Assembly: GCA_030532385.1 (NCBI GenBank)
Contig: JAUNLG010000004.1
Coordinates: forward strand, 1 to 64,000
Direction: 5' to 3'
DNA length: 64,000 nucleotides
DNA from: Anaerococcus sp.
Lineage (GTDB): Bacteria; Bacillota; Clostridia; Tissierellales; Peptoniphilaceae
Made by a program: the position numbers and the translations under genes. The notes under the pieces were generated by a model, which was not told the origin of the DNA, did not search any database, and saw only the letters and a list, made by a program, of their open reading frames with translations. Position 1 is the first letter of the stretch. Every line of letters begins with the position of its first letter. This document shows, piece after piece, positions 1-16,360 of the stretch.

Positions 1-1772
1 CAAAAGATATTATTGGATAAAATTAAAAGAAGAATTTTTCACAGACAAAAGGATAAAAAGATTAAGAAGAATATCGGGAGGAGATACCTAAAACTTCTAC
101 TACTAAGCCTAAAAGATGAGGGCAAACTCTATTATGACGGAGTAGAAAGTGATTTTATAAAAGAGTTAGCACTAATCATAGATGAAACAGACGATATGGA
201 AACAGATATAAGTATTCCAATCAAAAATATTATTAATGAAATTTATGCAGTAGACACCAGTAGAAAAATAAAGGCAGTGTATAAGGAAAAGGGACTTGAT
301 GGAAAGCATACAGGAAGTCATGCCATTTACGGATATAAAAAAGATCCTGAGGATAAAGACAAATGGATTATTGATGAAGAAGCTGCAAAGGTAGTGAAAA
401 AAATTTACTCTTTAGTAGTAAGCGGACTTGGCCTTATCAGATAGCAGATTTATTATATAAAGAACAGGTATATTCACCCTCTTATTATATGGCTATGAAT
501 GGCTATGGAAATCGTATTAATAAGGAATTTGACAATCCTTATCGTTGGTGGGGAACAACGGTGCAATACATCGTTAGAAGATAAGAATATTTGGGACATA
601 CCGTAAACTTTAAGACCATAAAACCAAGCTTTAAGGATAAGAGAAGCTACATCAATAAAAAAGAAAATTGGGCTATTTTTGAAAATACTCATGAAGCGAT
701 TATTGACAAAGAAACATGGGAAATTGCGAACTCTCTATTAAACACCGTAAGAAGACCGTCAAGAGATGGAACAGTAAATCCACATACAGGGAAGTTGTTC
801 TGTGTAGATTGTGGAGAAAAGTTATATAATTCAAGAGGAACAAATCAAAAAGGAACAGGACATTACAAAGAAGATGTCAAGTATGATAATTATATATGCT
901 CAACCTATCAGAAGCATAGAAATGAATGCTCTGCACACTATATAAGAACAAAAGTAGTCAGGGAGCTTATTTTAGAATCCTTAAAAGATATAAGTAAATA
1001 TATTGAGGATCATGAGGAAGAGTTTAAAAACATCGTTATATCTACTAGGCTTGAAGAAAGAGAGAAAAGTCAAAAGGAATATATAAAAAAATTAAAGGTG
1101 GACAAAAATAGACTTGCTGTAATAGATAGGTTGTTTGTAAAACTTTATGAGGATAATGCAAGTGGCAGAATCAATGATGAAACCTTTAATAAGATAGCAA
1201 TTCAGTATACAGAGGAACAAAACACCTTAAAAGATGAAATAGTTGCACTCGAGGAAGTAATGAAGAATGTACAAAATGCTAGTGATAATACAGAACAGTT
1301 TATTAAAAGCATTAAGAATTTTACTGATTTTTCCATACTTACAACCTCAATGATAAATCAACTGATAGATAAAATAGTAATCTATCAAAAGCAAAAACTT
1401 AAAAGATATAAGTTCACCCAAAGAATAGATATATACTTTAATTTTATCGGTAGGTTTGAAATAGGAAAAGATGATGAAATAGAGGAAGATACTTATGTAG
1501 AGGAAGAAGATAAAAAGTATATTCATAAAAACAGTAGATTTTTACCAATAACAGAATATCTTAAAGGTCAAGATAAAGAAATAGAGCTTGATTTTTCAAA
1601 GATGGAAGAACTTATAGGCAGAAAACTTTGTAAATCAGCAAGAAAATATCCTGGTTATTGGTATGCAAGTGATAACAGACCCATGGGAAATGCTATTTAC
1701 AATGCTGGATATTATATTGCTAAAGTGGACATAAAAGGAGAAAAAGTAAAGCTTGTAAATTATGATAAATAG
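1..1772 (+). pseudogene. Large serine recombinase (TndX/TnpX type), decayed, with C-terminal DUF7662-like domain
   Basis: Remnant of a large serine recombinase of the kind that excises and inserts conjugative transposons. The catalytic N-terminus lies outside the window or is lost. The recombinase domain is recognisable from about position 240 (PIKNIINE, AVDTSRKIKAVYKEKG, GYKKDPED). The frame breaks at about 432, where one base seems missing in ggcctta and translation continues as PYQIADLLY. A TAA at 582-584 stands where Glu of a REEYLGHTVNF-like motif is expected. After that, 591-1772 runs open with the zinc-ribbon cysteines (CVDCG, CSTYQKHRNEC) and a coiled coil. The last 70 residues (ITEYLKGQ, GRKLCKSARKYPGYW) resemble DUF7662, an unusual appendage. 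Residues before about position 130 do not look like the family. It marks the left end of the lanthipeptide island. Confidence 0.85.
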
Positions 1773-1830: not shown

Positions 1831-1861
1831 TTTAAGGTAGTTTTTATGCTTTTATTACTCA

Positions 1862-1890
1862 TTGTTTATAGAGCAATAAAAGATTAAAAT
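1862..1890 (+). promoter_or_regulatory. Candidate promoter of the lanM-lanT operon
   Basis: TTGTTT (1862-1867) and TAAAAT (1885-1890) are separated by 17 bases. They lie just upstream of the Shine-Dalgarno AGGAGG that precedes lanM. Both boxes deviate from consensus, so this is a candidate only. Confidence 0.4.
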
Positions 1891-1918: not shown

Positions 1919-4822
1919 ATGAATGAAGTAGTCAATGAATGGATTAATATAATTGGAACAGTTCAAAATAAGGACGAATTAGATAAATTTTTAAGTCAAA
2001 CAACTGGTTATAGTTTAGACTATTATTTGAATAAAAGAGATGGATTACAGAATAAGGTAGTTGATTTTAATTATGAGAATGAAGAAATTTTAGAATTAAA
2101 CGAAATATGTGATTGGTATAATTTGTATACTCCAATTTACTTAAAATTTAGACGCAATCTTATTGAAAATATAGGAAATCTTAAATTTATTGCATTTGAA
2201 AACTTAATTCACGAAGTTGATAAATACTGTATTCAGGAATCATTAAATTTATCTTATAGGTGTGTTGTTCAAGAAATAAATATCCTTAGACAGAAAAAAG
2301 AATTGGTAGGAGAAACAAGTGAAGATAGATATTTTTATTTTTGCAATAGTATGTGTAATGATAAAAATTATGTAAAAACATTCTTTAATAAATATCCTCA
2401 ATTATTTGAATTAATAAATTTAAGAATGAAACAAGTAACAGACTTTATAATAGAAATATGTTATAACGTTAATAATGAAAATGAAGAACTCTCAAATACA
2501 TTCTTTGACATAGAAAATTTAGAATTGAAAAACATTAATTTTAGTCTTGGAGATACTCATAATAACGGAAAATTTGTTTGTGTATTGAATTTTGATAATA
2601 ATAAGAAAGTAATTTATAAACCGAGAAATATGGGAATTGATTGTAGACTTGAGGAGTTGGGCAATTTTATTTCTGAAAAAAGTAATTATAGCATAAACAT
2701 ATATACTCCAAAAACAATAGATAAAAAAGATCATGGCTATGCCAGTTTTATTTGTGAAGAATCTTGTGAAGAAGATTCAGAAATAAAGGGTTATTTTAAA
2801 AACATTGGTTATTTATTAGCGTTGTTATATATACTTCAGTCTAAAGATTTTCATGGAGAAAATATAATTACATCAAGAGAAAAGCCTTACTTAATTGATA
2901 ATGAAACGATTTTACATCAAATAGACACAAAAATGGAGTATGAAAATTGTACGGAATATATATATTCTAATATATATAAGTCAGTTTATGGAACAGGAAT
3001 ATTACCTTTTTCTATGTATTCATCTAAAAATAATTTATCTATGGAAGTTGGGACTTTGAACTCTGGTAAAGAAAGAAAATCACCTTTTAAAACACAAGAG
3101 ATAATAAATAAAAAATCGGATAAAATAAAAATAATAAGTAAATTCAAAGATATAACAAGCGTTCCAAGTTCACCAATGTTAAAAAATATTCATATTTCAT
3201 GTGAAGAATATTTAGGTGATGTAATAGACGGATTTACTGAATTTTATAAATTTATCCTAAACATAAGGAAAGAATTTGAGGGTAAAATTAAAGAATTATT
3301 TAACAAAGAAAAAGCAAGATATATTTATAGAAATACGAACACATACTCTCAACTTTTAGAAACAAGTAGACATCCTGATTTATTGAAAAATGAGGTAGAT
3401 AGATACATTTACTTTTTACGATTATATACAACAATTAATTTATCAGACAAAGAAGAATTAACTTTGGCTAAATATGAGTTATCAGCACTTTTAAACAACG
3501 ATATTCCAATATTTTATTTAGGTTGTAATAATGGATTGATTTATGCTGAAAATGATAATGTTGTTGGAAGGGATATCAATAGCTCTTTGATTAATACCTT
3601 GTTAGAAAAAATTGAAAAATTAGATCAAGAAGATCTTAATAATCAACTTAAAATTATAAACATGTCATTTATTGGCAGTGGAATGACTATGGGGATGAAA
3701 GAAACATCATTTGATTTCAATTCTATAAATATAGAAAAACTTATTACAAATCGTTTAATGGATAATGCAATAAAATATAAGAATGAATTAGGATGGCAAG
3801 CGTTGGTAGGTATGGGGCAAGGGCTTTACAATATAATACCTATAGATTTTTCATTATATCAGGGAAGCATTGGAGTTGCATTAATTTTAGCATTAAGTAA
3901 TAAAACTCAGATTTCAGATATAGATAAGATAATTAATTATACTTTATCCAACTATAAATTTTTAAATTCTAAAAAAATGGGAGCATTTGATGGAATTTTT
4001 GGAATATTATATTCGTTAGCTAATATTTATGATATGAAACTTGGACTTGAAGATAAAATTGTTGAGATTATAAAAAGAGAGTTACATGACATTAATGATC
4101 AAGATAGATTAAAAAATTTGAATAATGATATAATATCGGGATATGCTGGAATTTTAGGAGTATTGATTACAATAAATGATATTTTTAAAGATAATAAAGA
4201 AATAGAGTCTATATCACATATTTTAGCAATTAAAGTCATTAATAATTTAAAAATTAAAGATATTAATAATACAGACATAGGTTATGCACATGGAAATGCA
4301 GGGATAATAGTTCAGCTTTATAGGTATATAAAACACTTTAATGTTAATGAGGATGATAAAATTGAAATTAATAACATAATTAGAGACATGCAAGAGTTGG
4401 AAAAAGTTGTAAATAATAAATATGAAATAAGAGAAAATGCAAAATATTATTCTTGGTGTAATGGTATTTTTGGAATTCTTTTAAAGAATGCATATTTAGA
4501 TCCAGAATATCATATTCCAATAGAAATTGAAAAAGACATTTTAGTAAATGGGTTTGGAGAAGATTATTCAATTTGTCATGGAGATATAGGCAATTTAGCG
4601 ATATTAAAAAATATTTCTAATATTGAAGTAGATGATAATAAAATAATAAACAATGCTGTAAAAAAACTATTTTCTATAAAAGATAAGTATAATTATGATG
4701 ATTGGGGTCTTATGACTGGAGAATTAGCAATACTTACCTACTATATGAGTAATGGAATTGAAATTATAAATAGAATATTATGTTTAGAAAAGCTGAGCGT
4801 AAATGATGAAAACAAAATATAA
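1919..4822 (+). CDS. lanM: Type II lanthipeptide synthetase LanM (dehydratase-cyclase), full length
   Basis: Bifunctional cytosolic enzyme that dehydrates Ser/Thr in a precursor peptide and cyclises them onto Cys to form (methyl)lanthionines. It has 967 residues, normal for LanM. The dehydratase half shows GDTH (211-214), KPR (234-236), DFHGEN (from 310) and DNET (from 327), all family signatures. The LanC-like half has GYAHGNAG (from 788) and the zinc ligands Cys847 (WCNG), Cys886 and His887 (CHG). The start has a strong AGGAGG. The 3' end overlaps lanT by 20 bases, so the two are translated together. The candidate substrates are the precursors at 11211-11387 and 12259-12456. All visible motifs are intact, so it is probably active. 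Confidence 0.96.
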   Translation: MNEVVNEWINIIGTVQNKDELDKFLSQTTGYSLDYYLNKRDGLQNKVVDFNYENEEILELNEICDWYNLYTPIYLKFRRNLIENIGNLKFIAFENLIHEVDKYCIQESLNLSYRCVVQEINILRQKKELVGETSEDRYFYFCNSMCNDKNYVKTFFNKYPQLFELINLRMKQVTDFIIEICYNVNNENEELSNTFFDIENLELKNINFSLGDTHNNGKFVCVLNFDNNKKVIYKPRNMGIDCRLEELGNFISEKSNYSINIYTPKTIDKKDHGYASFICEESCEEDSEIKGYFKNIGYLLALLYILQSKDFHGENIITSREKPYLIDNETILHQIDTKMEYENCTEYIYSNIYKSVYGTGILPFSMYSSKNNLSMEVGTLNSGKERKSPFKTQEIINKKSDKIKIISKFKDITSVPSSPMLKNIHISCEEYLGDVIDGFTEFYKFILNIRKEFEGKIKELFNKEKARYIYRNTNTYSQLLETSRHPDLLKNEVDRYIYFLRLYTTINLSDKEELTLAKYELSALLNNDIPIFYLGCNNGLIYAENDNVVGRDINSSLINTLLEKIEKLDQEDLNNQLKIINMSFIGSGMTMGMKETSFDFNSINIEKLITNRLMDNAIKYKNELGWQALVGMGQGLYNIIPIDFSLYQGSIGVALILALSNKTQISDIDKIINYTLSNYKFLNSKKMGAFDGIFGILYSLANIYDMKLGLEDKIVEIIKRELHDINDQDRLKNLNNDIISGYAGILGVLITINDIFKDNKEIESISHILAIKVINNLKIKDINNTDIGYAHGNAGIIVQLYRYIKHFNVNEDDKIEINNIIRDMQELEKVVNNKYEIRENAKYYSWCNGIFGILLKNAYLDPEYHIPIEIEKDILVNGFGEDYSICHGDIGNLAILKNISNIEVDDNKIINNAVKKLFSIKDKYNYDDWGLMTGELAILTYYMSNGIEIINRILCLEKLSVNDENKI

Positions 4823-6959
4823 AATACCATTTATAGAACAACATCAAAAAACCGAATGTGGTTTGTGCTGTGTGGCAATGTTAGCAAGTTATTACAAGCA
4901 TGAAGTCACAGTTAGAGAATTAAGAAGAGAAATTGAAACAGGAAGAGATGGAAGTAGTTTTATACAACTAATAGAGCTTTTAGAGGGAATGAAATTCAAT
5001 GTAAAAGCATATAAGATACCTAATAAAACAGAAAATGTAAAATTTATTAAACCAAAAAGTATAGCACTATGGGAAAGTAAACATTTCATTGTAATAGAGA
5101 GCATAAATAAAAAAAATATTTTAGTTGTTGATCCTGAGATAGGTAGAATAAGTTATACTTACGATGAATTTATGGGGGGATTTTCTGGATATTTAATTTC
5201 TGTGAGGAGTACGGAGCAAGTTGAGAAGAGAAGAGTTAAAATTGATTATTCATTTATGAAAAATATTTTATATTCTCATAAGAAACACTTTTTGTTATTG
5301 TTGTTTTTTACTTCACTGATGTATCTTGTAACATTTATTTTACCGATTGCAATAAAAGATATTATAAATACACTACAAGATAAGAGAGAAATATATAATT
5401 TAAAAGAATTAGTTAGTATTGTGCTTATATTAGCAATATCATATTATTTAATATTAATTCTTCAAAATAATAGTGCAATAAGACTTAGAGCATCAATAGA
5501 TAATCATTTGAATGTATCAACCATATCAAAGTTATTTAAATTACCATATAAGTTTTATTCAAATAGAAGTAAAGGCGATATCATTTATTCTTTAAATGGT
5601 TTACCAAGGATACGTGAATTATTTGCTAATAAAGTAATTATGGGATTTTTAGATATAGGAATGTTATTGTGTATATCTGGATATTTAATTTATTATGATA
5701 TATCAATATTTCTTGTTTCACTTATACTATTTACATTAAATTTATTTGTTTTATTTATTTCGAAGCAAAAGTTAGAACAGAACAATATTATGGTTTCAAT
5801 CCAACAAAATTTAGTTCAAAATAAGCAAATGGAAACCATATACTCAATGATGGGCATTAAAATGGAAGGGTTTGAAGATGATATTTATAAACAATGGGAA
5901 GATCAGTTTAATAAATATATATATAGGTATATAAAGTCTGAAAAATTTTCAAATTATATTAATTCATTATTACAGACAATAACATTTATATCTCCGTTTA
6001 TTGTGTTGGTTGCTACAATTGTTAAGTTCAGTGAAGGTAAAATGACAATTGGAATGGTTATTGCAATTTACTCATTTAGTGGAATATTTTTCAGCAAGAC
6101 TGATAGTGTTTTTAATACTATCATTAGCATAATTAATAGCAAAGTTTTTATTTCAAGAATTAATGATATATTAGATGAAGAAGATGAAAAAATTGGTTAT
6201 GTTAATCACGATTTAACTGGGAATATAACTTTGTCAAATGTATCTTTTTCATATGTGAAAAATGGACAGGAAATTTTAAAAAATATAAATATGGAAGTAG
6301 AAGCAGGCAAAAAAATTGCAATAGTGGGAACATCAGGTGCTGGAAAATCAACTATTTCAAAATTATTAGTTGGATTATATCAGCCATCTACAGGAAAAAT
6401 CATGTATGATGGAATATCAGAGAATGATATAAATCTTCAGTATATTAGAAAACAGATAGGAATTGTTCCACAAGATATGACATTATTCAACAAGACAATC
6501 AAAGAAAATATTGTTAACGGACTACAGTTTACTATGGAAGATGTAATAGAAGCTTGTAAATTAACTAATATACATGATGAAATAATGAATATGCCAATGA
6601 AGTATAATACTCTAGTTTCTGAGATGGGAATGAATTTATCGGGTGGACAGAGGCAAAGAATTGTTTTGGCAAGAGCGTTATTGAAAAAACCAAAAGTGAT
6701 TTTACTTGATGAAGCTACTAGTTATTTGGACAATATTAATGAGAAAAAAATTATGGACGAATTTAAAAAAAATAAGATTACAATAATTGTAATTGCACAT
6801 AGATTATCAACAATTATAGATTCAGATTGTATTTATGTATTTGATGAAGGAGAAGTTCGAGAATTTGGAAAACATGACCAATTAATGAACAGAGATGGTG
6901 GAATTTACAAAAAAATGTATGAATCTATTAAAGGAGAAAAAAATGTTATTAGAAATTAA
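4803..6959 (+). CDS. lanT: LanT: peptidase C39-containing ABC transporter for lanthipeptide export
   Basis: Removes the leader peptide and exports the modified lanthipeptide. The N-terminal C39 protease domain (about 1-140) carries the catalytic Cys19 in TECGLCC, a His in KHFIVI and Asp in DPEIG. A transmembrane domain of about six helices (about 155-440) follows. The ATPase domain has Walker A GTSGAGKST (from 509), signature LSGGQ (from 612) and a Walker B ending in LLDEATS. At 718 residues it has the family's usual size. It starts inside the end of lanM and overlaps the next gene by 17 bases, so the operon is tightly coupled. The C39 domain predicts cleavage after a Gly-Gly-type site, as in the precursor at 12259-12456. 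Confidence 0.96.
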   Translation: MMKTKYKIPFIEQHQKTECGLCCVAMLASYYKHEVTVRELRREIETGRDGSSFIQLIELLEGMKFNVKAYKIPNKTENVKFIKPKSIALWESKHFIVIESINKKNILVVDPEIGRISYTYDEFMGGFSGYLISVRSTEQVEKRRVKIDYSFMKNILYSHKKHFLLLLFFTSLMYLVTFILPIAIKDIINTLQDKREIYNLKELVSIVLILAISYYLILILQNNSAIRLRASIDNHLNVSTISKLFKLPYKFYSNRSKGDIIYSLNGLPRIRELFANKVIMGFLDIGMLLCISGYLIYYDISIFLVSLILFTLNLFVLFISKQKLEQNNIMVSIQQNLVQNKQMETIYSMMGIKMEGFEDDIYKQWEDQFNKYIYRYIKSEKFSNYINSLLQTITFISPFIVLVATIVKFSEGKMTIGMVIAIYSFSGIFFSKTDSVFNTIISIINSKVFISRINDILDEEDEKIGYVNHDLTGNITLSNVSFSYVKNGQEILKNINMEVEAGKKIAIVGTSGAGKSTISKLLVGLYQPSTGKIMYDGISENDINLQYIRKQIGIVPQDMTLFNKTIKENIVNGLQFTMEDVIEACKLTNIHDEIMNMPMKYNTLVSEMGMNLSGGQRQRIVLARALLKKPKVILLDEATSYLDNINEKKIMDEFKKNKITIIVIAHRLSTIIDSDCIYVFDEGEVREFGKHDQLMNRDGGIYKKMYESIKGEKNVIRN

Positions 6960-7698
6960 AGATGTTACAAAGGTTTATGGAGAACATGAAAATAAAGTAA
7001 AAGCATTAGATAGAATATCTTTACAGTTCAACGAAGGAGAGTTTGTATCTGTTATGGGAAGTAGTGGCTCAGGAAAAACTACTCTTCTTAACTGTATATC
7101 AAGTATTGATAAACCTACTTCAGGAGATATTCTAATTAATGGGAAAAGCTTGATAAATTTGGATTCAGACCAATTAGCAGAATACAGAGCAAAAAATATA
7201 TCATTCATATTTCAAAGTTATAATTTAATAACAAACTTAACTGTATATGAGAATATAATTTTACCATTACAAATATCAAAAAAAAATATAAAATATAATC
7301 AAAAAAGAATTGATGACATAATGAGTAGACTATCAATAAAAGAATTAAAGTCTAAATTTCCAAATCAATTATCAGGTGGACAGCAACAAAGAGTTGCAAC
7401 AGCTAGAGCAATCATTAATTCAACGAATATTTTAATTGCAGATGAGCCTACTGGTGCTTTAGATTCATCAAATTCAGATAAGTTAATGCACTTGTTACGT
7501 GAATTAAATAAAGAGATAAAATTATCAATCTTAATGGTTACACATGATCCTTTAGCGGCAAAATATTCATCAAAGGTCATATTTCTATCAGATGGTAGGA
7601 TAATAGATCAACTAATAAGACAAGATGAAGATGATGATCCAAAGTTTTTAGAAAAAATAATAGAGAAACAAAAATATATAGATAAAGAGGTGAGGTAA
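6943..7698 (+). CDS. ABC transporter ATPase, BceA/MacB type, likely lanthipeptide self-protection
   Basis: ATP-binding subunit of 251 residues. The start is set at the ATG at 6943 (MLLEIKDV), preceded by AAAGGAG, rather than at an upstream ATG inside lanT. Walker A is GSSGSGKTT (about 39-47), the signature is LSGGQQQR and Walker B is ILIADEPTGALDS, typical of the BceA/LolD group. The permease follows immediately. BceAB transporters shield cell-wall lipid targets from peptide antibiotics, and their presence in a lantibiotic operon implies producer immunity. No cognate BceS histidine kinase is nearby. Confidence 0.93.
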   Translation: MLLEIKDVTKVYGEHENKVKALDRISLQFNEGEFVSVMGSSGSGKTTLLNCISSIDKPTSGDILINGKSLINLDSDQLAEYRAKNISFIFQSYNLITNLTVYENIILPLQISKKNIKYNQKRIDDIMSRLSIKELKSKFPNQLSGGQQQRVATARAIINSTNILIADEPTGALDSSNSDKLMHLLRELNKEIKLSILMVTHDPLAAKYSSKVIFLSDGRIIDQLIRQDEDDDPKFLEKIIEKQKYIDKEVR

Positions 7699-9705
7699 AT
7701 GTTAGCTAAATTAGTTTTTAGAAATGTAAAAAGAAATCTTCAAACCTATTCTATATATTTTGCAACGCTAACGATAATTTATAGTTTATTATATTCGTTT
7801 AATACTGTGGTTAGTAATCCAGTCTTAAATGAGGCTGGAGATACAAAACAAATATTATCAAGATTTATGGAACAGTTTATGGGAGTGTTATCAGTATTTG
7901 CAGCAGTAGCGTTTATATTTTTAGTGTTATACTCTACTCAATTTGTTCTTAAAAGAAGAAGTAAGGAATTTGGTTTATACTCATCTCTAGGTATGAAAAA
8001 TAAAAAAATAGGAAAAATTTTATTTTTTGAAAGTATAATAGTAAATTCAGGCTCACTTATTTTAGGTTTTATTATTGGGTGGATTATTTCCTTATTTTTA
8101 ACAAAAATTCTTATTAGTATATTTGCATTGAGTAGTAAGGTTAACTATTTTTATGTAAGTTCTAAGGCAATATTTATAACGGTAATATGCTTTTTTATAA
8201 TTGTGATAATTTCATCTATTTTTAATAAAATAAAAATTAATAGAGTTAGCATTATTTCGCTTTTAAAGGAAGAAGATGCAAATGGTAATGAAATAAAATT
8301 GAATAGCATATCCCAGATTATTGGTATGGGTATATCTATTATTTGCTTATCAGTATCAATCTATTTAATTAACAGTTTGCAGGATATATCATCGTTAAAA
8401 AATTTAGGCTACATTATATTAATAGTTTCTGTTATTGGCATTTTGATTTTTTACCATACATTTGGGAATATGTTGATTCGGATGATTAAACGAATTCCAA
8501 AATTATATTATAAATCAACTAACACAGTTTTATTTAGAGAGTTATCTACTGAGTCAAATAAAAACTCCATTACTATTGCAGTGATGTCCATATTTTTAAC
8601 ACTATCTTTTTCAATAGTATTAATTGGAGGAAGCTCATATATTTCAATGAACAAAGAAATTAGCAATTCAAGTCCATATAACTTAACAATTATAGCTAAT
8701 AAGCCTTTAAATAAGGGGCAATTTTTAAAAGAATTGAATGATAGGGGTATAGATACCAATGCCTTATTTTCTAATTCCGTAGATTTTTACACTTATAAAT
8801 CAACAATAAAGTATAGAGATTTAGGGATTGAGGATAAAAATTTATGGCAGATAGATAATGGTCTAGAAAATCAATCAGTTTCAGTAATAAATATATCAGA
8901 TTTTAATAAAACTTTGGAAATGCAAGGCAAAGAAAAAATAAATTTAGATAAAAATCAATATATCATAAATTGCAACTATAAAGGAACTCTATCTTATATA
9001 AATAAATTTTTAGAACAAGGAAGATCCTTAAACATAGGAAATTCAGAATTACAACCTAAATTTCAAAGTCCAACAGACAATACAATAATTATGACTAGTG
9101 TAGGGAATAATGATAGAGGGACTTTAATTGTAGATGATAGTATAACTGATAGTTTAGAAAAAGATGATAATATATTAAATGCTATCTATAAAAAAGGTGT
9201 TGATGAGCGTAAGTTAACACGAATGATTAATGAATATATAATGGATCATTCATGGACAAATGATTCTGGATTACAATTTGATTATAAATATCAAACAAGA
9301 GACAGACTTAGAGATATGTTTAGTGGTTCTATGGGTGCAATAGTATTCTTAACGATGTTTACAGGTGTAATATTTACATTGATTTCATTATGTATACTTT
9401 CAATTCAAACTACAACAACTGCAATTAGTTTTAAAAAAGATTCCAAAATACTTAATTCATTAGGATTGAAATATGAAAAAATATCAAAGTTATTGCTCAA
9501 AGAAATACTTATTTATTTTTCGATTCCTTGTATTTTAGCAATACCAGGAGGAATATTAGTTGGGAAAAAAATTATTAGTTTCTTTGAAACTTTTCTTAAT
9601 TTTACAATTCAAGTCAACCCAGTGGTTTTAATTATACAAATAGCGTTATTTTCACTTTATATTTTTATGACCTATAGTATTAGCAAAAAAATTATAAAAG
9701 ACTAA
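7699..9705 (+). CDS. FtsX-like ABC permease, BceB type
   Basis: Membrane subunit of 668 residues that pairs with the preceding ATPase; the ATG starts right after that gene's stop, behind GAGGTGAGG. The topology is BceB-like. There is one N-terminal helix (about 17-40), a group of helices with two FtsX regions, a large extracellular domain at about 305-525 and a final FtsX domain with three helices (about 555-665). The N-terminus LVFRNVKRNLQTYSIYF is typical of the family. The large loop is the part that senses or sequesters peptide antibiotics in known members. Last gene of the lanM operon before the intron. Confidence 0.92.
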   Translation: MLAKLVFRNVKRNLQTYSIYFATLTIIYSLLYSFNTVVSNPVLNEAGDTKQILSRFMEQFMGVLSVFAAVAFIFLVLYSTQFVLKRRSKEFGLYSSLGMKNKKIGKILFFESIIVNSGSLILGFIIGWIISLFLTKILISIFALSSKVNYFYVSSKAIFITVICFFIIVIISSIFNKIKINRVSIISLLKEEDANGNEIKLNSISQIIGMGISIICLSVSIYLINSLQDISSLKNLGYIILIVSVIGILIFYHTFGNMLIRMIKRIPKLYYKSTNTVLFRELSTESNKNSITIAVMSIFLTLSFSIVLIGGSSYISMNKEISNSSPYNLTIIANKPLNKGQFLKELNDRGIDTNALFSNSVDFYTYKSTIKYRDLGIEDKNLWQIDNGLENQSVSVINISDFNKTLEMQGKEKINLDKNQYIINCNYKGTLSYINKFLEQGRSLNIGNSELQPKFQSPTDNTIIMTSVGNNDRGTLIVDDSITDSLEKDDNILNAIYKKGVDERKLTRMINEYIMDHSWTNDSGLQFDYKYQTRDRLRDMFSGSMGAIVFLTMFTGVIFTLISLCILSIQTTTTAISFKKDSKILNSLGLKYEKISKLLLKEILIYFSIPCILAIPGGILVGKKIISFFETFLNFTIQVNPVVLIIQIALFSLYIFMTYSISKKIIKD

Positions 9706-9754: not shown

Positions 9755-10334
9755 GTATGACGGGTATGTCCTAATGCTGGGGTGAAATCCCCTTCAGAGC
9801 GTAGTTACCGGTGAATCTAATAGCGACCCCGAAGTTTTAGATTGCGACATTTAGGAGAGAAGAACGGGTAGCAAAATCGTGGCTTGACGAACAGGAACAT
9901 AATATAAGGCGTAACAGGTGGGCAAGCTAGCTAGAGATAGCAAAAACCCAAAAGGTAACCGTAAACCCAAGGCGTAAATTCTGCAAGTAAACGATGAAAG
10001 TTTTAGGGCTTATCCCGTGAGGTCTCACTAGCGAATCAGTAGTAACAACGAATAGTGAGAAGTCAGCAGAATCCATAGTAGCGAGGAAGTTTCTGTAATG
10101 GAAATGGAGCGAAGGGAGGAACAATATTCATTGTAATATTTGAAAAGGATGGACTATGACTTGATGGAATACAAGGAATGACGTATTCATTCTTCAAGGT
10201 TCGGATAAAAAAAGAATAAAGTTAAATAGTTTCATCAGAAATAAATAATATAACACAAGGAAGATTGAACCGCCGTATGCCGAACGGCACGTATGGGTGG
10301 TGTGAAAGAGGCTAGATATTAGCCCCTATTCGAT
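9755..10334 (+). mobile_element. Group II intron without an encoded protein
   Basis: The RNA core of a bacterial group II intron, about 580 bases. The 5' end reads GTATGACGGGTATGTCC, followed by domain I text (CTGGGGTGAAATCCCCTTC, GAGCGTAGTTACCGGTGAA). Near the 3' end domain V is clear: GAACCGCC, GTATGCC-GAAC-GGCACGTAT, then GGGTGGTGTGAAAG. It is followed by a domain VI hairpin (GGCTAGATATTAGCC) and the canonical-looking end CCTATTCGAT. No reverse transcriptase/maturase reading frame is present, so it is a deleted derivative or depends on a protein in trans. Boundaries are inferred from consensus ends and may shift by a few bases. It sits in the same orientation as the lan operon, 49 bases after its last stop codon. 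Confidence 0.85.
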
Positions 10335-10354: not shown

Positions 10355-11005
10355 CTATTTACTCATTTGGTCAAAATAACCTAATTCAACAGCCTTCAAA
10401 ACAGCCTCATATCTGTTACATACTCCTAGTTTAGCATATATATGATTTAGATGATTAGATATAGTTCTTTGAGAGATTTCTAGGTTTTTGGAAATTTCTT
10501 TTATCTCTGATCCAGCTCTAATTAACTTTAATAGTTCCATTTCTCTTGGAGTAAGAATACTAATGACTTCATCGTATTCTCGAAGTTTTAATATATGTCC
10601 ATCTTTATTTATAACTATTTCATTAAAATGATCTGTCCCTGAAGCGATATCTATTAGTGTATAGATAAGAGATTCTTTTGAAATATTTTTTTCAATATAA
10701 CCAGATGCTCCAAGTTCAATAGCTCGAAATTCGTAGATAGGTCTATTATAGTAAGTTAGAAGAACTATCTTTTGCTTAGGACAAATTGATTTGATATCAA
10801 TAGCAACAGAAAAACCAGATTTTTCGGATATATTTTTAAGATCGATCTTAATTAAAATTAAATCATAGAAATTATTTTCTAAAAAACTTTTAATATTATC
10901 AACATCTTTGTAAATGGTTATGTCACTAAATTCATCATGTTGCTCCAACAATGTTTTTAGTCCTAAAGAAAATAACATTTCATCATCAATCAATAGTATT
11001 TTCAT
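10355..11005 (-). CDS. NarL/LuxR-type response regulator with an atypical receiver domain
   Basis: DNA-binding regulator of 216 residues: receiver domain (about 1-120) and LuxR-type helix-turn-helix (about 150-210, LTPREMELLKLI, ISQRTISNHL). The start is the ATG at 11005 with GGAGGAAAA upstream. The acidic pocket D7-D8 and the conserved Lys (YIEK) are present. However, the phospho-acceptor position reads Lys53 (DLILIKIDLK) where the family has Asp. Classical phosphorylation is therefore unlikely, and no histidine kinase lies nearby. It stands directly downstream of the minus-strand precursor peptide genes, so it may control the lanthipeptide locus by ligand binding or dimerisation. Confidence 0.9.
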   Translation of the reverse strand: MKILLIDDEMLFSLGLKTLLEQHDEFSDITIYKDVDNIKSFLENNFYDLILIKIDLKNISEKSGFSVAIDIKSICPKQKIVLLTYYNRPIYEFRAIELGASGYIEKNISKESLIYTLIDIASGTDHFNEIVINKDGHILKLREYDEVISILTPREMELLKLIRAGSEIKEISKNLEISQRTISNHLNHIYAKLGVCNRYEAVLKAVELGYFDQMSK

Positions 11006-11033
11006 TTTTCCTCCTATATTAATACGCAAAGAA

Positions 11034-11068
11034 AACACTCTATGTCTTTGATACGGATATAGAGTGTT
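11034..11068 (-). terminator. Terminator of the lanA1/small membrane peptide unit
   Basis: Ten-base perfect arms AACACTCTAT and ATAGAGTGTT with a 15-base loop. On the minus strand the hairpin is followed by TTCTTT. It lies between the 40-residue membrane peptide and the response regulator, so the regulator is read by read-through or from its own promoter. Confidence 0.75.
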
Positions 11069-11088
11069 TCAAATTTTAATAAAAAAAA

Positions 11089-11211
11089 TTATCGTTTATT
11101 TTTTCTGTTTTTCATTTTTTTGTATATCACAACTGCTATAATGACTATTGTAATAATTATGATAACAGGAGCATAAAACTCTAAAGTTCCTTTAATAGCT
11201 TCTGAATTCAT
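11089..11211 (-). CDS. 40-residue single-helix membrane peptide, candidate lanthipeptide immunity protein
   Basis: Small frame of 40 residues. Its ATG overlaps the stop codon of the precursor peptide (TAATG), so it should be translated by coupling. A short N-terminal stretch (MNSEAIKGTLEFYAP) precedes one hydrophobic helix (about 14-30, rich in Ile/Val) and a strongly basic tail (KKMKNRKNKR). The family is not recognised. Small basic membrane peptides beside bacteriocin genes are often immunity factors, so that role is inferred. It could instead assist export. Confidence 0.65.
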   Translation of the reverse strand: MNSEAIKGTLEFYAPVIIIITIVIIAVVIYKKMKNRKNKR

Positions 11212-11387
11212 TAGCAAGAAACATTATTAGTTGTGCATTCATAAGATCCAGTAAACCATTTTCCACACTTGCCAGCTAAAGTAAGTTGGATAGCTGTTGA
11301 CCAGCCACTACCTGATTTTCCCTCTAATTCTTGGTTTTCTATCTCATAAGATAGAGTTTCGATTGAGTTATTTTCGTCTTTGTTCAT
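11211..11387 (-). CDS. Type II lanthipeptide precursor (LanA1)
   Basis: 58-residue precursor on the strand opposite to lanM, with AAGGAG nine bases before its ATG. The acidic leader (about 1-23) ends in NQELEG. The core begins KSGSGW, resembling the lacticin 481/salivaricin A type start (KGGSGV, KRGSGW). Ser/Thr and Cys are spaced for three regular rings: T36-C41, T46-C51 and T53-C58, each Thr-x4-Cys. The exact leader cleavage point is uncertain (after LEG or after SGSG), since a classical GG is missing. Substrate of the LanM at 1919-4822 by inference. Easily missed because it is short. A coupled membrane peptide gene follows. Confidence 0.88.
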   Translation of the reverse strand: MNKDENNSIETLSYEIENQELEGKSGSGWSTAIQLTLAGKCGKWFTGSYECTTNNVSC

Positions 11388-11432: not shown

Positions 11433-11510
11433 TTATATTTATAATTATAGTGCATGTTCATAATAATTGCCATGAGTAAATAGTGCAATATTAGAGAAAA
11501 CTTAGAAGAA

Positions 11511-11717
11511 ATGATGAATGATAACTACAAGGATTTTATAAAAGCACTTGTGAGCATAGAAAAAGGCATTAATGATGAAAAGGCACTTGAAGAAGTGTAT
11601 GTTTTATATATGAACAATGACACAACAGGTCCACTAAGTGATGACTTTGACTATATGATTGATGAGATGAAAGAACAAGGAAAGATTGTTGAAAATACTA
11701 ATAATATTGAAGAATAG
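11511..11717 (+). CDS. Small acidic protein of conjugative-element type, function unknown
   Basis: 68-residue hydrophilic protein (MMNDNYKDFIKALVSIEKG, later DEKALEEVYVLYMNND). I recall similar small proteins next to single-strand-binding-like genes in Tn1549/CTn-type conjugative elements, but cannot name the family. The ribosome-binding site is weak. The same frame continues after the TAG as the decayed OB-fold gene described next, so the two may be neighbours from the same lost element. It is a remnant of mobile DNA between the two lanthipeptide precursors. Confidence 0.5.
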   Translation: MMNDNYKDFIKALVSIEKGINDEKALEEVYVLYMNNDTTGPLSDDFDYMIDEMKEQGKIVENTNNIEE

Positions 11718-12122
11718 GATGACTTAATAAATTTAGTTGGCAATATAGCTGGGAAAGTAGAAAATCTTGAAAGAGAAAATGCTAATGGAGAAAAGTTCAA
11801 AGTAAGTAACTTTTCTCTTGTTTCAAAAGATGATAATGGGAATAAAGTTTATACCAATTGTTCATCCTATGGAGATAAGACAAAAGATTTAGAGAATCTA
11901 AAACAAGGAGATTTTGTTAAAATCTTCGGACAAGTAAAAACAAACATTGATTATAACGGAAAGGAACATAATAATGTTCGTATTTTGTCTTCTAAGCTAT
12001 TAAAAGCAAAAGAACAAGTAAAGAGTCAAGACAAGGATAAAAAGACCATAGCAAAGGAACAGAGAGATAAATATCGGCAGTCTTCGGACTGCCTTTATTA
12101 TTTTAACTTTAATACATATTAA
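11718..12122 (+). pseudogene. Remnant of a single-stranded-DNA-binding-like (OB-fold) gene from a conjugative element
   Basis: Open stretch that follows the TAG at 11715-11717 in the same frame and has no start codon of its own. It translates to LINLVGNIAGKVENL, then FSLVSKDDNGNKVYTN, LKQGDFVKIFGQV and NNVRILSSKLLKAKEQ. This is the OB-fold layout of SSB-like proteins of conjugative transposons. The C-terminal end after about 12065 runs into a terminator hairpin and looks like foreign sequence. With no start and a replaced tail it is considered decayed. Confidence 0.6.
12076..12104 (+). terminator. Rho-independent terminator with UUCG tetraloop
   Basis: GGCAGTC-TTCG-GACTGCC followed by TTTATTATTTT. 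The stem is perfect over seven pairs. It would separate the conjugative-element remnant from the lanA2 promoter. Confidence 0.85.
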
Positions 12123-12258: not shown

Positions 12259-12456
12259 ATGAAAAAAAATAAAGAAGTTGATTTTGAAGAATTAAAAAGA
12301 CTTGCTGCATATGGAGGATATGATGATAAAAATCAAAGCGAACCACAGTCTGTAAGCGCAATAGTAAGTGCTACTGTAAAAGTGTGTTTACCAGCACTTT
12401 CTGCTGTAACTACATTTTTCTCATGTAATAAATCTTGCAGTTGGGGCTGCAAATAG
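12259..12456 (+). CDS. Type II lanthipeptide precursor (LanA2), two-peptide beta-like
   Basis: 65-residue precursor preceded by AAGGAAGG. The leader (EVDFEELKRLAAYGG) ends in a Gly-Gly at 19-20, the expected LanT C39 site. The following segment YDDKNQSEPQ resembles the short linker that a second protease trims in lichenicidin/cytolysin-type peptides. The remaining core is rich in Ser/Thr/Val/Ala, with Cys43, Cys56, Cys60 and Cys64 (VCLPAL, SCNKSC, WGCK). It differs completely from LanA1, as the partners of two-component lantibiotics do. It is followed by the GntR-ABC genes and the truncated LanM2, which may have been its dedicated enzyme. Confidence 0.87.
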   Translation: MKKNKEVDFEELKRLAAYGGYDDKNQSEPQSVSAIVSATVKVCLPALSAVTTFFSCNKSCSWGCK

Positions 12457-12532: not shown

Positions 12533-12928
12533 TTGGAAATACTTATAAGTTATCAGTCTAAAGACCCTATATATATTCAAATAGTATCACAAATTAAAAA
12601 ACTTGTATTAGACGGAAGATTAAAACCTGGTAATAGTATTCCAGCAATGAGAACTTTAGCTAAAGATTTAAATGTCAGTGTCATAACTGTTCAAAAAGCA
12701 TATGAAATATTACGTGATGAAGGCTTTTTAAACACGGTCGTAGGAAAAGGTACATTTGTAGAAATGCCTGAGATTCATGATTTAAAAATTAATCAAAGAG
12801 AAAATCTCATTACGAAAATTGATGAAACAATAAAATTTGCATATATTAATGGTTTTAGTTCGGATGAATTTCTAGACTTAGTAAATCATCAAATTAAGTC
12901 TTTTGATGATATGAGAAAGGAGAAATAA
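12533..12928 (+). CDS. GntR-family regulator, YtrA subfamily
   Basis: 131-residue repressor-type protein with an N-terminal winged helix (about 8-75: YIQIVSQIKKLVLDGRLKPG, MRTLAKDLNVSVITVQKAYE, VGKGTFV) and a short C-terminal dimerisation helix, the layout of the YtrA subgroup. The start is TTG at 12533, supported by GGAGG six bases upstream. The stop overlaps the next ATG (TAATG), so it is co-translated with the ABC exporter, the usual ytr-type arrangement. Probable target: the GTAC palindrome before lanA2, and perhaps its own promoter. The signal may be cell-envelope stress or the peptide product. Confidence 0.92.
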   Translation: MEILISYQSKDPIYIQIVSQIKKLVLDGRLKPGNSIPAMRTLAKDLNVSVITVQKAYEILRDEGFLNTVVGKGTFVEMPEIHDLKINQRENLITKIDETIKFAYINGFSSDEFLDLVNHQIKSFDDMRKEK

Positions 12929-13794
12929 TGGATAAGATATTAGAAGTTAAAAATTTAGAAAAATCATATCCAAATAACGGATTTAAATTAAATAAAATAA
13001 ATTTCAATGTAGCTAAAGGTTCTATAGTAGGAATTATAGGGGAAAACGGATCTGGTAAAACTACTACTTTGAATTTAATTTTAGGATTGAAATCCAAAGA
13101 TGGTGGAGCTGTTGAAATATTTGGTAGAGAATTTAATATAGATGATATAGATATAAAAGAAAAGATCGGTGTATCTTTTGATGAGATTTACCTACCGACC
13201 AATCTAAATGCTAAAGAAATTTCAAAAATATACAAAAATATATACCAAGGTTGGGATGAAAAATATTTTTTTAGTAGTTTAAATAATTTTGGAATTGATA
13301 AGGTAAAAAAGATTGGGGATTATTCAAAAGGGATGCAAAAAATGTTATCCATAGTAATAGCCATGTCTCATGCACCTGATTTACTAATCTTAGATGAACC
13401 CACAAGTTCACTAGACCCTGTAAAAAGAAGTGAAGTTTTAGGAAAGTTTCAAGAATTTATCGAAAATGGAGATCGTTCAATAGTTTTTTCTAGTCATATT
13501 ACTACCGGCATAGAGCATATTTGTGACTATGTAGTTTTTATAAACAAGGGAAATTTAATATTCACGAGTCCGACAATTGAGCTCTTGTACGAAAATTGCA
13601 TTGTTAGATGTACATCTGAAAGTTTTAATAAACTAAATAAATCAAATACAATAGCTTATTTACAAAAAAATAACCAAGTAATTGTTTTGTTGAAATCAAG
13701 AGATGACTTAGATAAATCTATTGATAATATTATAATAGAAAATCCGACACTTGAAGAAATTATGAATATATATTCTAAAGGTACTATATTATGA
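12928..13794 (+). CDS. ABC transporter ATPase of YtrB/LanF type
   Basis: 288-residue ATP-binding subunit with Walker A GENGSGKTT (about 38-46), a degenerate signature YSKGMQKM and Walker B LLILDEPTSSLDP. The C-terminal 70 residues form the extra domain seen in drug- and lantibiotic-exporter ATPases. The gene is coupled to the regulator upstream and overlaps the permease downstream by four bases. In this setting it probably powers a LanFEG-like immunity exporter, though one of its two permease genes is broken. Confidence 0.92.
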   Translation: MDKILEVKNLEKSYPNNGFKLNKINFNVAKGSIVGIIGENGSGKTTTLNLILGLKSKDGGAVEIFGREFNIDDIDIKEKIGVSFDEIYLPTNLNAKEISKIYKNIYQGWDEKYFFSSLNNFGIDKVKKIGDYSKGMQKMLSIVIAMSHAPDLLILDEPTSSLDPVKRSEVLGKFQEFIENGDRSIVFSSHITTGIEHICDYVVFINKGNLIFTSPTIELLYENCIVRCTSESFNKLNKSNTIAYLQKNNQVIVLLKSRDDLDKSIDNIIIENPTLEEIMNIYSKGTIL

Positions 13795-14442
13795 TGGGAT
13801 TAATAAAAAAAGATTTAATGGTATCTGGATTTAAATTAAAGCACATGTTAGTATTTTTAATACTTATTACAGCTCTGTTCTTTCTTGAAATCACAAGAGA
13901 ATATATTCCGCTTATTTCTTATGGCTTTATGTTATTTGCTCCTATTATTGTCTTTTTAAGCATATCGAATTATATGGAAAATGATGATTACAAAACTGAA
14001 ATTCTTTTTCCTATAAAAAAAAAGAACAATAGTAACCGCTAGATTTCTAGAATATTTTATTATATCTTTAATGTGCATTACATTAATATATGTAATGGTG
14101 TATGTAAAACAGGTATTTGATAAAATGCAATTTAGAGATCATCAAATAAATTTATTAGCAACGGGTATTGGAATGACTCTCATATATGGCGGATTGGTAC
14201 TGTGTATGATGTTTGCAATTGGGCAAAATCATATTAAGGAAATAGGGATTGCAGCTTTCATATTTACCTTAATTCCTGTAAGGGTGTTTATGGAAATAGT
14301 AAAAAAATCTCTCGGTTTAACCAATGTTTTTGATTTTTATAGCTACACCAATATGATATTCGCTTTTATCTCTTTTGCTATAGTATTTTATCTAATATCA
14401 TATTTAGCGTCTATACTAATTTTTTTAAAAAAAGAATATTAA
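13791..14442 (+). pseudogene. ABC-2-type permease split by a frameshift in an A9 run
   Basis: Membrane subunit of the neighbouring ATPase. The first part (13791-14042) has two helices and ends at IKKKNNSNR. The second part (from about 14023, in another frame) continues as RTIVTARFLEYFIISLMC and holds four more helices up to 14442. Frames join in the nine-A run at 14015-14023; eight A would restore one protein of about 216 residues. It could be a true inactivation, a phase-variable tract, a slippery site or a sequencing slip. It resembles the ABC2_membrane_5 group that pairs with YtrB-like ATPases. Confidence 0.8.
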
Positions 14443-14456
14443 ATTAAGGAGGGTAT

Positions 14457-15053
14457 ATGAGGGGATTGTTTTCGTATTACATTAAGCTTTCAAAGAGAAA
14501 ATTTCTCTTATTTATGTCTTTACTAATAATAGTAATTTTGATTAGTATGTTTGAATCTGCTCATGAGTTGGTGTTATTGTATTTAGGATTTTTACCTACT
14601 ATATTACTTGCGTATAGTAATGATCAAAAAAACAAAAAAATTATATTCGAAAGATTGATCCCTGTCAATATTAGAAATATAATTACAACTCAGTATTTAG
14701 TAATAATTCTTTATTCGTTGATAGGATTTTTGTTATCCTTACTTTATTTACTAATCTTAAAGTATTTGGATGTTAATCTTAACTTTAACGAACAAATCAC
14801 CAATATAAAGATAATAATGTTGTTTTCAATAAATCTAAATATATCGATATTAATAAACTCATTAATTAAGAAAAAAATGTTTAAAATTTTTGCTTTTGCA
14901 ATACCAATGTTTCAAGTATTAATTACATTTAATGATAAAACAAATCTCTTTTCACAGAAAAGTGTGGATGCATATAATGTTATTGTAACCATACTATATA
15001 TATTAATATCTTTACCTATATCACATAGATTATACAAGAATTATTGGAAGTGA
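14457..15053 (+). CDS. Second ABC-2-like permease of the immunity-type exporter
   Basis: 198-residue protein with about six hydrophobic helices (30-40, 42-57, 80-105, 117-135, 143-160, 175-192) and basic cytosolic ends. GGAGGG stands before the ATG. It follows the broken permease in the same direction and most likely forms the transporter with it and the ATPase at 12928-13794. No specific family motif is visible, so the assignment rests on topology and position. Confidence 0.75.
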   Translation: MRGLFSYYIKLSKRKFLLFMSLLIIVILISMFESAHELVLLYLGFLPTILLAYSNDQKNKKIIFERLIPVNIRNIITTQYLVIILYSLIGFLLSLLYLLILKYLDVNLNFNEQITNIKIIMLFSINLNISILINSLIKKKMFKIFAFAIPMFQVLITFNDKTNLFSQKSVDAYNVIVTILYILISLPISHRLYKNYWK

Positions 15054-15115
15054 TTTTAAAAAATACTATAATTTGAATTTTGTTTATTATAGGAGATAAA
15101 AATATAGGACATAAA

Positions 15116-16360
15116 ATGAAAAATGAAAAAATATCAGAAATTATATATTCGACAAATTTAATACAAAGGCTTATTAATTATTTTAAACTTGATGTTAGTA
15201 TAAATGAATTAATAATATCAAAGGGTATATATGAGAGTATTATTTATAAAAATATATTTTATAATATTTACGAAATATTAGAGCCTATACTCGTAGATCA
15301 ATTTAACTCCATGTATGACCAAGATAATAATAATTTTAAATTTAGGGAAAATTTGTTATCTTTTATTATGATTATAGAGAACGAGAGATATATAAATCTC
15401 TTATTTAGAAATTACCCTGTTTTAGAAAATATTTTCTCCATAACAATACAAGATATTATTAATTTGATTAACGAAATTTATACAAACTACCAAGCTGATA
15501 AATGCGAATTAAACAGTATATTCAATCAAAACTTTGGGTCCATAACCGATATTCAGCTCGGAGTTGGAGATAGGCATAATAATAAAAGTGTAGCTAAAGT
15601 TAAGTTTATCACTGGAGAGCTTTTCTATAAACCAAAAAAATTGCTTACGGACCAATTGTTTAATGAATATTTGGAATTTATGGAAAATCACAATGTTTCA
15701 CAATTCAAAAAAGTAAACTCTTTAATTAAAAATAACTACGCATGGAAAGAGGTAATTAAATGTAGTCAATATTTATCGATTAATGAGGCAATGGAATATT
15801 ACTATCGATCAGGAATTATTCTATCAATTATTACTTGTCTTAGAGGAACTGACATACACTATGAAAATATTATTGTATCAAATGGTTATCCTACAGTCAT
15901 AGATACAGAAACAATAATATCTCCTACTAAGATAGAAAATATTAAAATAGATAATGGGAAAGATTTATCCCTTAGTGTATTATCGACAGCTTTGCTACCA
16001 ATAAAGGATAACCTTTATGATATAAATGTATGTGGGCTATTTCCAAAAGAAGATATTTCTAAATCTATCTATTACTATGAGCTAAATCAAGATGATGATA
16101 ACGGATTTAGTTACGAAAAGAAAGCGGTGAAAATGGATATTGGTTATAACGGAGTTTACGTAAATAATAAACTTGTTAATCCTAACATAGTAAAAGAATA
16201 TCTAGTATCTGGATTTAAAGATGGCATGCATGCTATATACTCTAACAAAAAAGAATTTTTAGATATACTAGGGTCTGAAAAGTATGAGGATTTATTTATT
16301 AGACATATTTTGAGAGGAACACAAGTATATTATACATTTTTAAGAGAAGAATATCTTTAA
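15116..16360 (+). pseudogene. Second LanM, truncated inside the dehydratase domain
   Basis: LanM-type sequence with the dehydratase signatures GDRHNN, FYKPKKL, GTDIHYEN and VIDTETI. The homology ends at RGTQVYYTFLRE, the equivalent of RNTNTYSQLLE at about residue 470 of the first LanM. The last codons (EYL, stop) belong to a transposase remnant that starts at about 16347. The rest of the dehydratase and the whole LanC cyclase are missing (about 414 residues against more than 900). The start is taken at the ATG at 15116; the upstream AGGAGA and AGGAC leave it uncertain. It was probably the LanA2 enzyme and is likely inactive now. Confidence 0.9.

Follow-up and report, generated by a model that had tools for sequence, protein, structure and literature searches.

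Salivaricin 10 of Streptococcus salivarius SALI-10, known from oral streptococci, has been described as the first lantibiotic of natural origin to bear a stable phosphate and to show immune effects; the strain is reported to make "phosphorylated lantibiotics", and the natural phosphorylated products named in that source are SrnA1, SrnA2 and SrnA4, with SrnA3 absent from those named (PMC13219514). A review places the phosphothreonine of salivaricin 10 at position 4 (PMC11944278), which fits a core starting with GWFT. The locus comprises srnA1-4, srnX, Y, K, R, M and T, and we equate the four precursor copies on the SALI-10 plasmid (L005) with SrnA1-4 by strain, order and number, so that copy 2 is taken as SrnA2 and copy 4 as SrnA4. 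The lacticin 481 group (salivaricin A, estercin A) consists of Firmicutes lantibiotics that are likewise of class II and are served by a LanM and a C39-type LanT; the cores of its members carry a double Cys at the C-terminal end and are recognized by the Pfam type A lantibiotic model. For Anaerococcus, a sactipeptide of A. prevotii is on record (PMC4289311), and the literature surveyed held no report tying the genus to the salivaricin M / salivaricin 10 family.

Here we describe a locus in a stretch of 64,000 nucleotides of an Anaerococcus genome (hereafter, the window), which very likely encodes the precursor of a salivaricin M / salivaricin 10-type class II lanthipeptide within an apparently complete producer cluster, with proposed steps of modification, export, immunity and regulation. 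The precursor gene, of the slmA type, is read on the minus strand from 11387 to 11211 and specifies the 58-residue product MNKDENNSIETLSYEIENQELEGKSGSGWSTAIQLTLAGKCGKWFTGSYECTTNNVSC followed by a stop codon. In the upstream DNA (...AAAAGGAGAACTACAATG), an AAGGAG site ends 7 bases 5' of the ATG. Against the NCBIfam model NF040663 (salivaricin M family lantibiotic), the product scores 112.7 bits (E 4.7e-33; model positions 1-56 of 57), far above the curated cut-off of 60 bits, and we see no difference that would break membership of that family. The product also matches the plantaricin C model, under that model's cut-off, and a Pfam search gave no match up to E 1.

By tblastn, a genome collection yields two confirmed loci, in Anaerococcus sp. 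AGMB09787 (78% identity) and Streptococcus loxodontisalivarius (68%), and 72,556 plasmid records yield three, all from Streptococcus (71-72%). The family occurs in two of 31 genomes of the window's genus, exceeds the cut-off in three of 391 genomes of a class sample (own genome counted), and is present in 11 of 196 genomes sampled for their relationship to S. loxodontisalivarius, which we call streptococcal on account of this sampling. Phage origin was considered and rejected, since 50,697 phage records contain no match to the precursor and viral contigs no confirmed relative.

Judged by its sequence, 11211-11387 genuinely encodes a class II lanthipeptide precursor, one of the salivaricin M family: its core combines Ser/Thr with Cys, and the co-encoded LanM holds dehydratase and cyclase in one chain. 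That the frame is open by chance, or that the precursor depends on a different enzyme, is extremely improbable. The frame is short, and a second, truncated LanM lies at 15080-16360; still, a chance frame is rejected by the E value of 4.7e-33 to NF040663, both domains occur together only in the LanM at 1919, a SALI-10 LanM query against the genome returns that LanM alone at E 1e-20, and AGMB09787 has the same arrangement of slmA, lanM, lanT and bceAB. The profile match and the tblastn identities thus bear out an earlier note on this DNA, which had read the frame, from the letters alone, as a lanthipeptide precursor with an acidic leader and an AAGGAG site on the strand opposite its LanM; leader, site and strand were all confirmed, the LanM by profile match. 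Its remark that such a frame is too short for common gene callers is not true in general: the plasmid homologues carry an slmA annotation.

The genes expected to act on this precursor are read from the plus strand, convergently with slmA. LanM (1919-4822) is a class II lanthipeptide synthetase of 967 aa that matches TIGR03897 with 577.1 bits against a threshold of 304 and contains DUF4135 and LANC_like domains. It carries the motifs GDTH, YKPR, DFHGEN, RYIYRNT, WCNG and CHG, the last two of which we take to be zinc-site motifs; the P-loop Asp/His, the kinase Lys, the Asp-x-His-x-x-Asn motif and the Arg/Thr pair are all there, and kinase and elimination motifs are present. In CylM, the D/H and R/T positions are described as required for phosphate elimination (PMC4550811). 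LanT (4803-6959) is an ABC exporter with Peptidase_C39, ABC_membrane and ABC_tran domains and intact Cys/His/Asp motifs. It is followed by a BceA-type ATPase (6943-7698; 70% identical to AGMB09787 and 56% to SALI-10) and a BceB-type permease with an FtsX domain (7699-9705; 57% and 36%, respectively), and motifs are intact throughout lanM-lanT-bceA-bceB (1919-9705). We note that, with the regulator described below, this gives the components of a phosphorylated-lantibiotic cluster (lanM, lanT, BceAB pair, response regulator) except for a sensor kinase, which was not found in the genome, itself 82% complete.

Comparison with the SALI-10 locus reveals both shared and distinct features. The two share the gene kinds lanM, lanT, BceAB pair and response regulator and a core starting G-x-x-T, and 26 of 31 core residues of the window precursor are identical to SALI-10 copy 2 (21 of 31 to copy 4). 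In contrast, the window holds one precursor where SALI-10 has four, the window precursor is convergent with lanM-lanT-bceAB whereas the SALI-10 genes are co-directional, SALI-10 has a kinase-regulator pair, and the host genus is Anaerococcus. The enzymes are also more divergent than the core, with identities to SALI-10 of only 36% for LanM, 53% for LanT, 56% for BceA and 36% for BceB; the product is therefore better conserved than the enzymes. A LanM match was obtained in 127 plasmid records; the 30 of them listed are headed by two salivarius plasmids with a salivaricin-type cluster (506 bits), the next highest listed scoring 271 bits. The layout of the window recurs in AGMB09787 (L003/L027), with lanM-lanT-bceA-bceB on one strand and slmA (78% identical) together with a small membrane peptide on the other; there, unlike in the window, the response regulator lies on the far side of lanM, and the core has Ile2 and Leu17 where the window core has Trp. 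S. loxodontisalivarius has the same gene kinds in a co-directional arrangement, with four precursors and a kinase-regulator pair. The lacticin 481 group was rejected, as the window core lacks paired Cys near its C-terminus and gave no Pfam match up to E 1; estercin A, which is placed in that group (PMC11877530), was rejected as a close relative for that reason.

Alignment of the precursors delimits the likely leader and core. Using MAFFT on 18 precursors from seven loci, we find the [ST]-x4-C spacing conserved in 17/18 sequences for ring 1, 18/18 for ring 2 and 17/18 for ring 3, and the Thr of a Thr-Ala upstream of ring 1 invariant in 18/18. This alignment is the unbiased statement on the invariance of Thr, the pattern by which cores were located presupposing it; three tandem precursors of one genome (28 bits, under the cut-off) and four LAB813 copies (L006) that duplicate those of SALI-10 were omitted. 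In 15 of the 18, GS, GA, GG, AS or AA stands immediately before G-x-x-T; the exceptions are an extra residue in one SALI-10 copy (the third) and in one S. loxodontisalivarius copy, and one DA. Intact copies from G507 and G568, obtained after the alignment, gave two further junctions, GS before GWFT and AA before GLYT. The leader (residues 1-27; 11307-11387, minus strand) thus probably ends in ...QELEGKSGS, and the core (residues 28-58; 11214-11306, minus strand) would be GWSTAIQLTLAGKCGKWFTGSYECTTNNVSC, starting with GWST. This placement is based on the alignment, the core comparison and the position 4 given for salivaricin 10 in PMC11944278. A core start at KSGSGW, as previously read, was rejected; it probably lies four residues early, because the double-glycine-type GS sits just before GW, and a start at GW fits both the family pattern and the reported phosphothreonine-4.

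The three Thr-x4-Cys pairs that had been recognized in the earlier note are present at T36-C41, T46-C51 and T53-C58 in precursor numbering, and their spacings are kept in related precursors, whereas their loss was what that note had named as a refutation. LanM would dehydrate Ser and Thr of the core and close rings T9-C14, T19-C24 and T26-C31 (or T25-C31). LanT, in keeping with its Peptidase_C39 domain and the double-glycine-type leader end, is predicted to cut after ...KSGS and to export the core peptide, presumably an antibacterial product. The frame had also been held not to be close to any familiar lantibiotic, which the salivaricin M match and the 26 core residues shared with the SALI-10 precursor contradict. 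The suggestion of a new mature product stands insofar as this is a new member of the family in Anaerococcus; otherwise the kind was already known. The claim of novelty is thus mostly unsupported: given the likeness to copy 2 and the NF040663 match, the Anaerococcus product is an addition to a known kind, from a cluster that appears complete and takes a known family into another host genus. Two points appear worth following, namely a phosphothreonine prediction involving a divergent LanM and an overlooked membrane peptide.

With the core starting at GWST, the invariant Thr is position 4, as in salivaricin 10, and the GWST of the window is also the start of SALI-10 copy 4. By analogy, a phosphate placed by LanM is most likely retained on Thr4, a residue without a ring partner, as reported for salivaricin 10, although the phosphothreonine evidence comes from Streptococcus, whose LanM is 36% identical to that of the window. 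It is rather unlikely that the product, while of the salivaricin M type, has Thr4 dehydrated to Dhb or unmodified and is an ordinary non-phosphorylated lantibiotic. The elimination motifs of LanM are indeed intact, and at 36% identity to the SALI-10 enzyme its site selectivity may differ; the same motifs, however, are present in the SALI-10 LanM, whose strain reportedly makes phosphorylated products (PMC13219514), and Thr4 is invariant in 18/18 precursors, lacks a Cys partner at ring spacing and lies in the same GWST as copy 4. The divergent Anaerococcus LanM offers an independent enzyme for asking how a synthetase of this kind can keep one Thr phosphorylated while others are dehydrated.

Immediately downstream of slmA, at 11089-11211 on the minus strand, we find a frame for a membrane peptide of 40 aa, with a single helix and a basic tail, that is a candidate immunity peptide. 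In fact, a one-helix peptide of 35-40 residues lies 3' of the last precursor gene in 15 loci read, namely those of the window and AGMB09787 and 13 streptococcal loci, including a 35-aa version in SALI-10 that the feature table leaves unannotated. In both Anaerococcus loci its gene overlaps the slmA stop (TAATG in the window), and in 13/13 streptococcal loci it is preceded by a GGAG-containing site. Nine members share an invariant M, E, I, GTL, FYAP, V and K, and the 13 streptococcal copies give a pooled pN/pS of 0.19, the pooled pairs being non-independent. Two more distant Clostridia loci gave no match to the peptide; one of them has a 44-aa helix frame after bceB.

The peptide also follows the precursor across genomes. 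Among plasmids it occurs in the same three records as the precursor, with no listed feature in two and named a sortase-signal protein in one. Of the 196 relatives, 11 reach E 1e-21 or better, a set identical to the genomes bearing the precursor family, and two further genomes match no better than E 0.003 and 0.008. Its own genome gives E 4.5e-18 in the class sample, where 16 others match weakly (E 1.5e-4 to 0.0097; 17 of 391 in total). The model used (A1) includes rows from genomes later searched, and for this reason it is mainly the absence elsewhere that is informative. Profile searches with the nine members gave weak matches to sortase-signal models (TIGR03065 in 6/9, best E 9.1e-5) and one match to CydS (1/9, E 2.8e-4), which might arise with any basic-tailed peptide of one helix.

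What might this peptide do? In Staphylococcus aureus, VraH is a small membrane protein with a positively charged C-terminus that forms a complex with the BceAB-type transporter VraDE and matters for gallidermin resistance (PMC5786555). The likeness to the 40-aa peptide is an analogy by description, and a scan of the nine members returned no VraH-named family among its matches; the srn gene list given in PMC13219514 includes no small peptide. By this analogy, we propose that the peptide is an immunity subunit working like VraH. The BceAB-type transporter (6943-9705) would provide self-immunity, probably together with the 40-aa peptide, which probably helps to protect the producer. A wider form of this proposal we advance tentatively, at somewhat less than even confidence: that the salivaricin 10-type system extends past streptococci to Anaerococcus, and that every Streptococcus and Anaerococcus cluster carries a previously unlisted one-helix peptide of 35-40 residues (E-x-I-x-GTL-x-FYAP, basic tail), which serves the BceAB-type immunity transporter for phosphorylated lantibiotics as its dedicated third subunit and is retained by non-producers for protection against producers. 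If it is an immunity subunit, it would help to explain the resistance of producers and of non-producing streptococci to these peptides.

Decayed streptococcal loci bear on this question. In 10 of the 11 streptococcal genomes with the family, LanM was not found at E 1e-20, and the eleventh has a LanM with one internal stop. Those 10 loci lacking a LanM match have a membrane peptide (35/35 residues), BceA, BceB and kinase free of internal stops, and the regulator is so in 9/10, that of G507 having one stop inside its match. In eight of these loci, all precursor copies found are interrupted; in G507 one of two copies is partial, and in G568 both precursor matches are stop-free. These 10 loci probably share ancestral losses and are not independent. 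S. pneumoniae loci are reported not to make intact peptides (PMC13219514), and decay as such is therefore already known. That the membrane peptide is no immunity factor, and instead aids slmA export, sensing or translation coupling, is quite possible if on balance doubtful: the overlap with the slmA stop in both Anaerococcus loci and the co-occurrence with slmA favor such a role, but the peptide is intact beside BceAB and kinase in 10/10 genomes without a LanM found, eight of them with all slmA copies interrupted. Retention without LanM agrees better with protection or sensing than with production.

The putative regulator of the cluster is a response regulator with Response_reg and GerE domains (receiver and LuxR-type HTH) on the minus strand at 10355-11005, where an ATG with a GGAGG stands at 11005 within a longest frame of 10355-11038. 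It is only 36-40% identical to the regulators of related loci and adjoins a group II intron. Its probable sites of action are TTGCA-N3-TTTACTCAT boxes in front of slmA and lanM. A candidate operator, TTGCACTATTTACTCATG, lies upstream of slmA (11471-11488, minus strand) with one mismatch to the consensus TTGCANNNTTTACTCATT, and a weaker candidate, ATGCTTTTATTACTCATT, upstream of lanM (1846-1863, plus strand) with three. Ahead of the first precursor, the consensus, drawn from seven of the sites it later recovers, is found with 0-1 mismatches in the window and in every streptococcal locus but G568 (12 of 13), and with two in AGMB09787. Before lanM it has one mismatch in AGMB09787, SALI-10 and S. 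loxodontisalivarius. The two Clostridia loci have no such site with up to two mismatches.

In eight Markov shuffles of the first 20 kb, means of 0.0, 0.25 and 1.75 sites were obtained at <=1, 2 and 3 mismatches, against one, two and five observed. The lanM box is thus not significant alone, at a shuffle mean of 1.75, and a second two-mismatch site, better than the lanM box, falls at 9986 inside the intron, where a promoter is not expected; what speaks for the lanM box is its position and the boxes that AGMB09787, SALI-10 and S. loxodontisalivarius carry before lanM. If functional, the candidate boxes would tie both strands into one regulon. Promoter-like sites near slmA are no commoner than in shuffles. 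Between the unit of slmA and membrane peptide and the response regulator, a hairpin at 11032-11070 (minus strand; -13.7 kcal/mol, z -3.5) is a possible attenuator or terminator; a terminator scan reported none, though this hairpin folds.

A partner kinase is present in 13/13 streptococcal loci read. The query used on the window genome is weak across genera: its best AGMB09787 match is distant (26% identity) and lies on another contig there. One may ask whether this strain carries the cluster in a silent or decaying state, with the sensor kinase lost, a group II intron having invaded and the precursor unexpressed. We consider this unlikely. In its favor, the genome gives no kinase match, group II intron domains lie at 9838-10117, neighboring frames are interrupted or truncated (11511-12050; LanM fragment, 15080-16360), and streptococcal relatives are often decayed, LanM not being found in 10/11 with the family. 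Unlike in those decayed loci, however, the biosynthetic, export and immunity frames are open and motif-complete, and the intron sits between genes. Our preferred reading remains that of an apparently complete producer cluster.

Several observations concern the surroundings of the cluster. The group II intron domains (RF02001 and RF01998; 9838-10117, plus strand) lie between bceB and the response regulator, in a region with no reverse-transcriptase-sized frame. Just before lanM, a serine recombinase apparently stands in two pieces (13-444 and 591-1772, plus strand), the second with Recombinase, zinc ribbon and DUF4368 domains and the first with a weak match; comparison with the S. loxodontisalivarius recombinase (20%) was uninformative and was set aside. 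On the other side, an interrupted frame (11487-12050, plus strand) shares 90% identity with a gene that belongs to a mobile element in AGMB09787 (L049, 14479-15201). The latter adjoins a kinase-like gene (L049, 12355-14178, minus strand), a histidine-kinase-like frame running into a glyoxalase-like C-terminal part, perhaps a fusion; further on lie frames resembling a ribosomal-protection GTPase and a nucleotidyltransferase, all of these names coming from reading the sequence. The cluster is probably the cargo of a mobile element.

A second lanthipeptide-like precursor (65 aa, ...VSAIVSATVKVCLPALSAVTTFFSCNKSCSWGCK) is encoded at 12259-12456 on the plus strand and was found only in the window genome among 150 relatives searched. 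It is followed (12533-16360, plus strand) by a GntR regulator, an ABC ATPase, ABC-2 permeases and the LanM fragment, which contains DUF4135 only (15080-16360). The 12 kb read of the S. salivarius plasmid pSsal-YU10 contain no match to this LanM fragment; the plasmid carries a 58% homologue of the second precursor, with no listed gene, in the same GntR-ABC-permease order.
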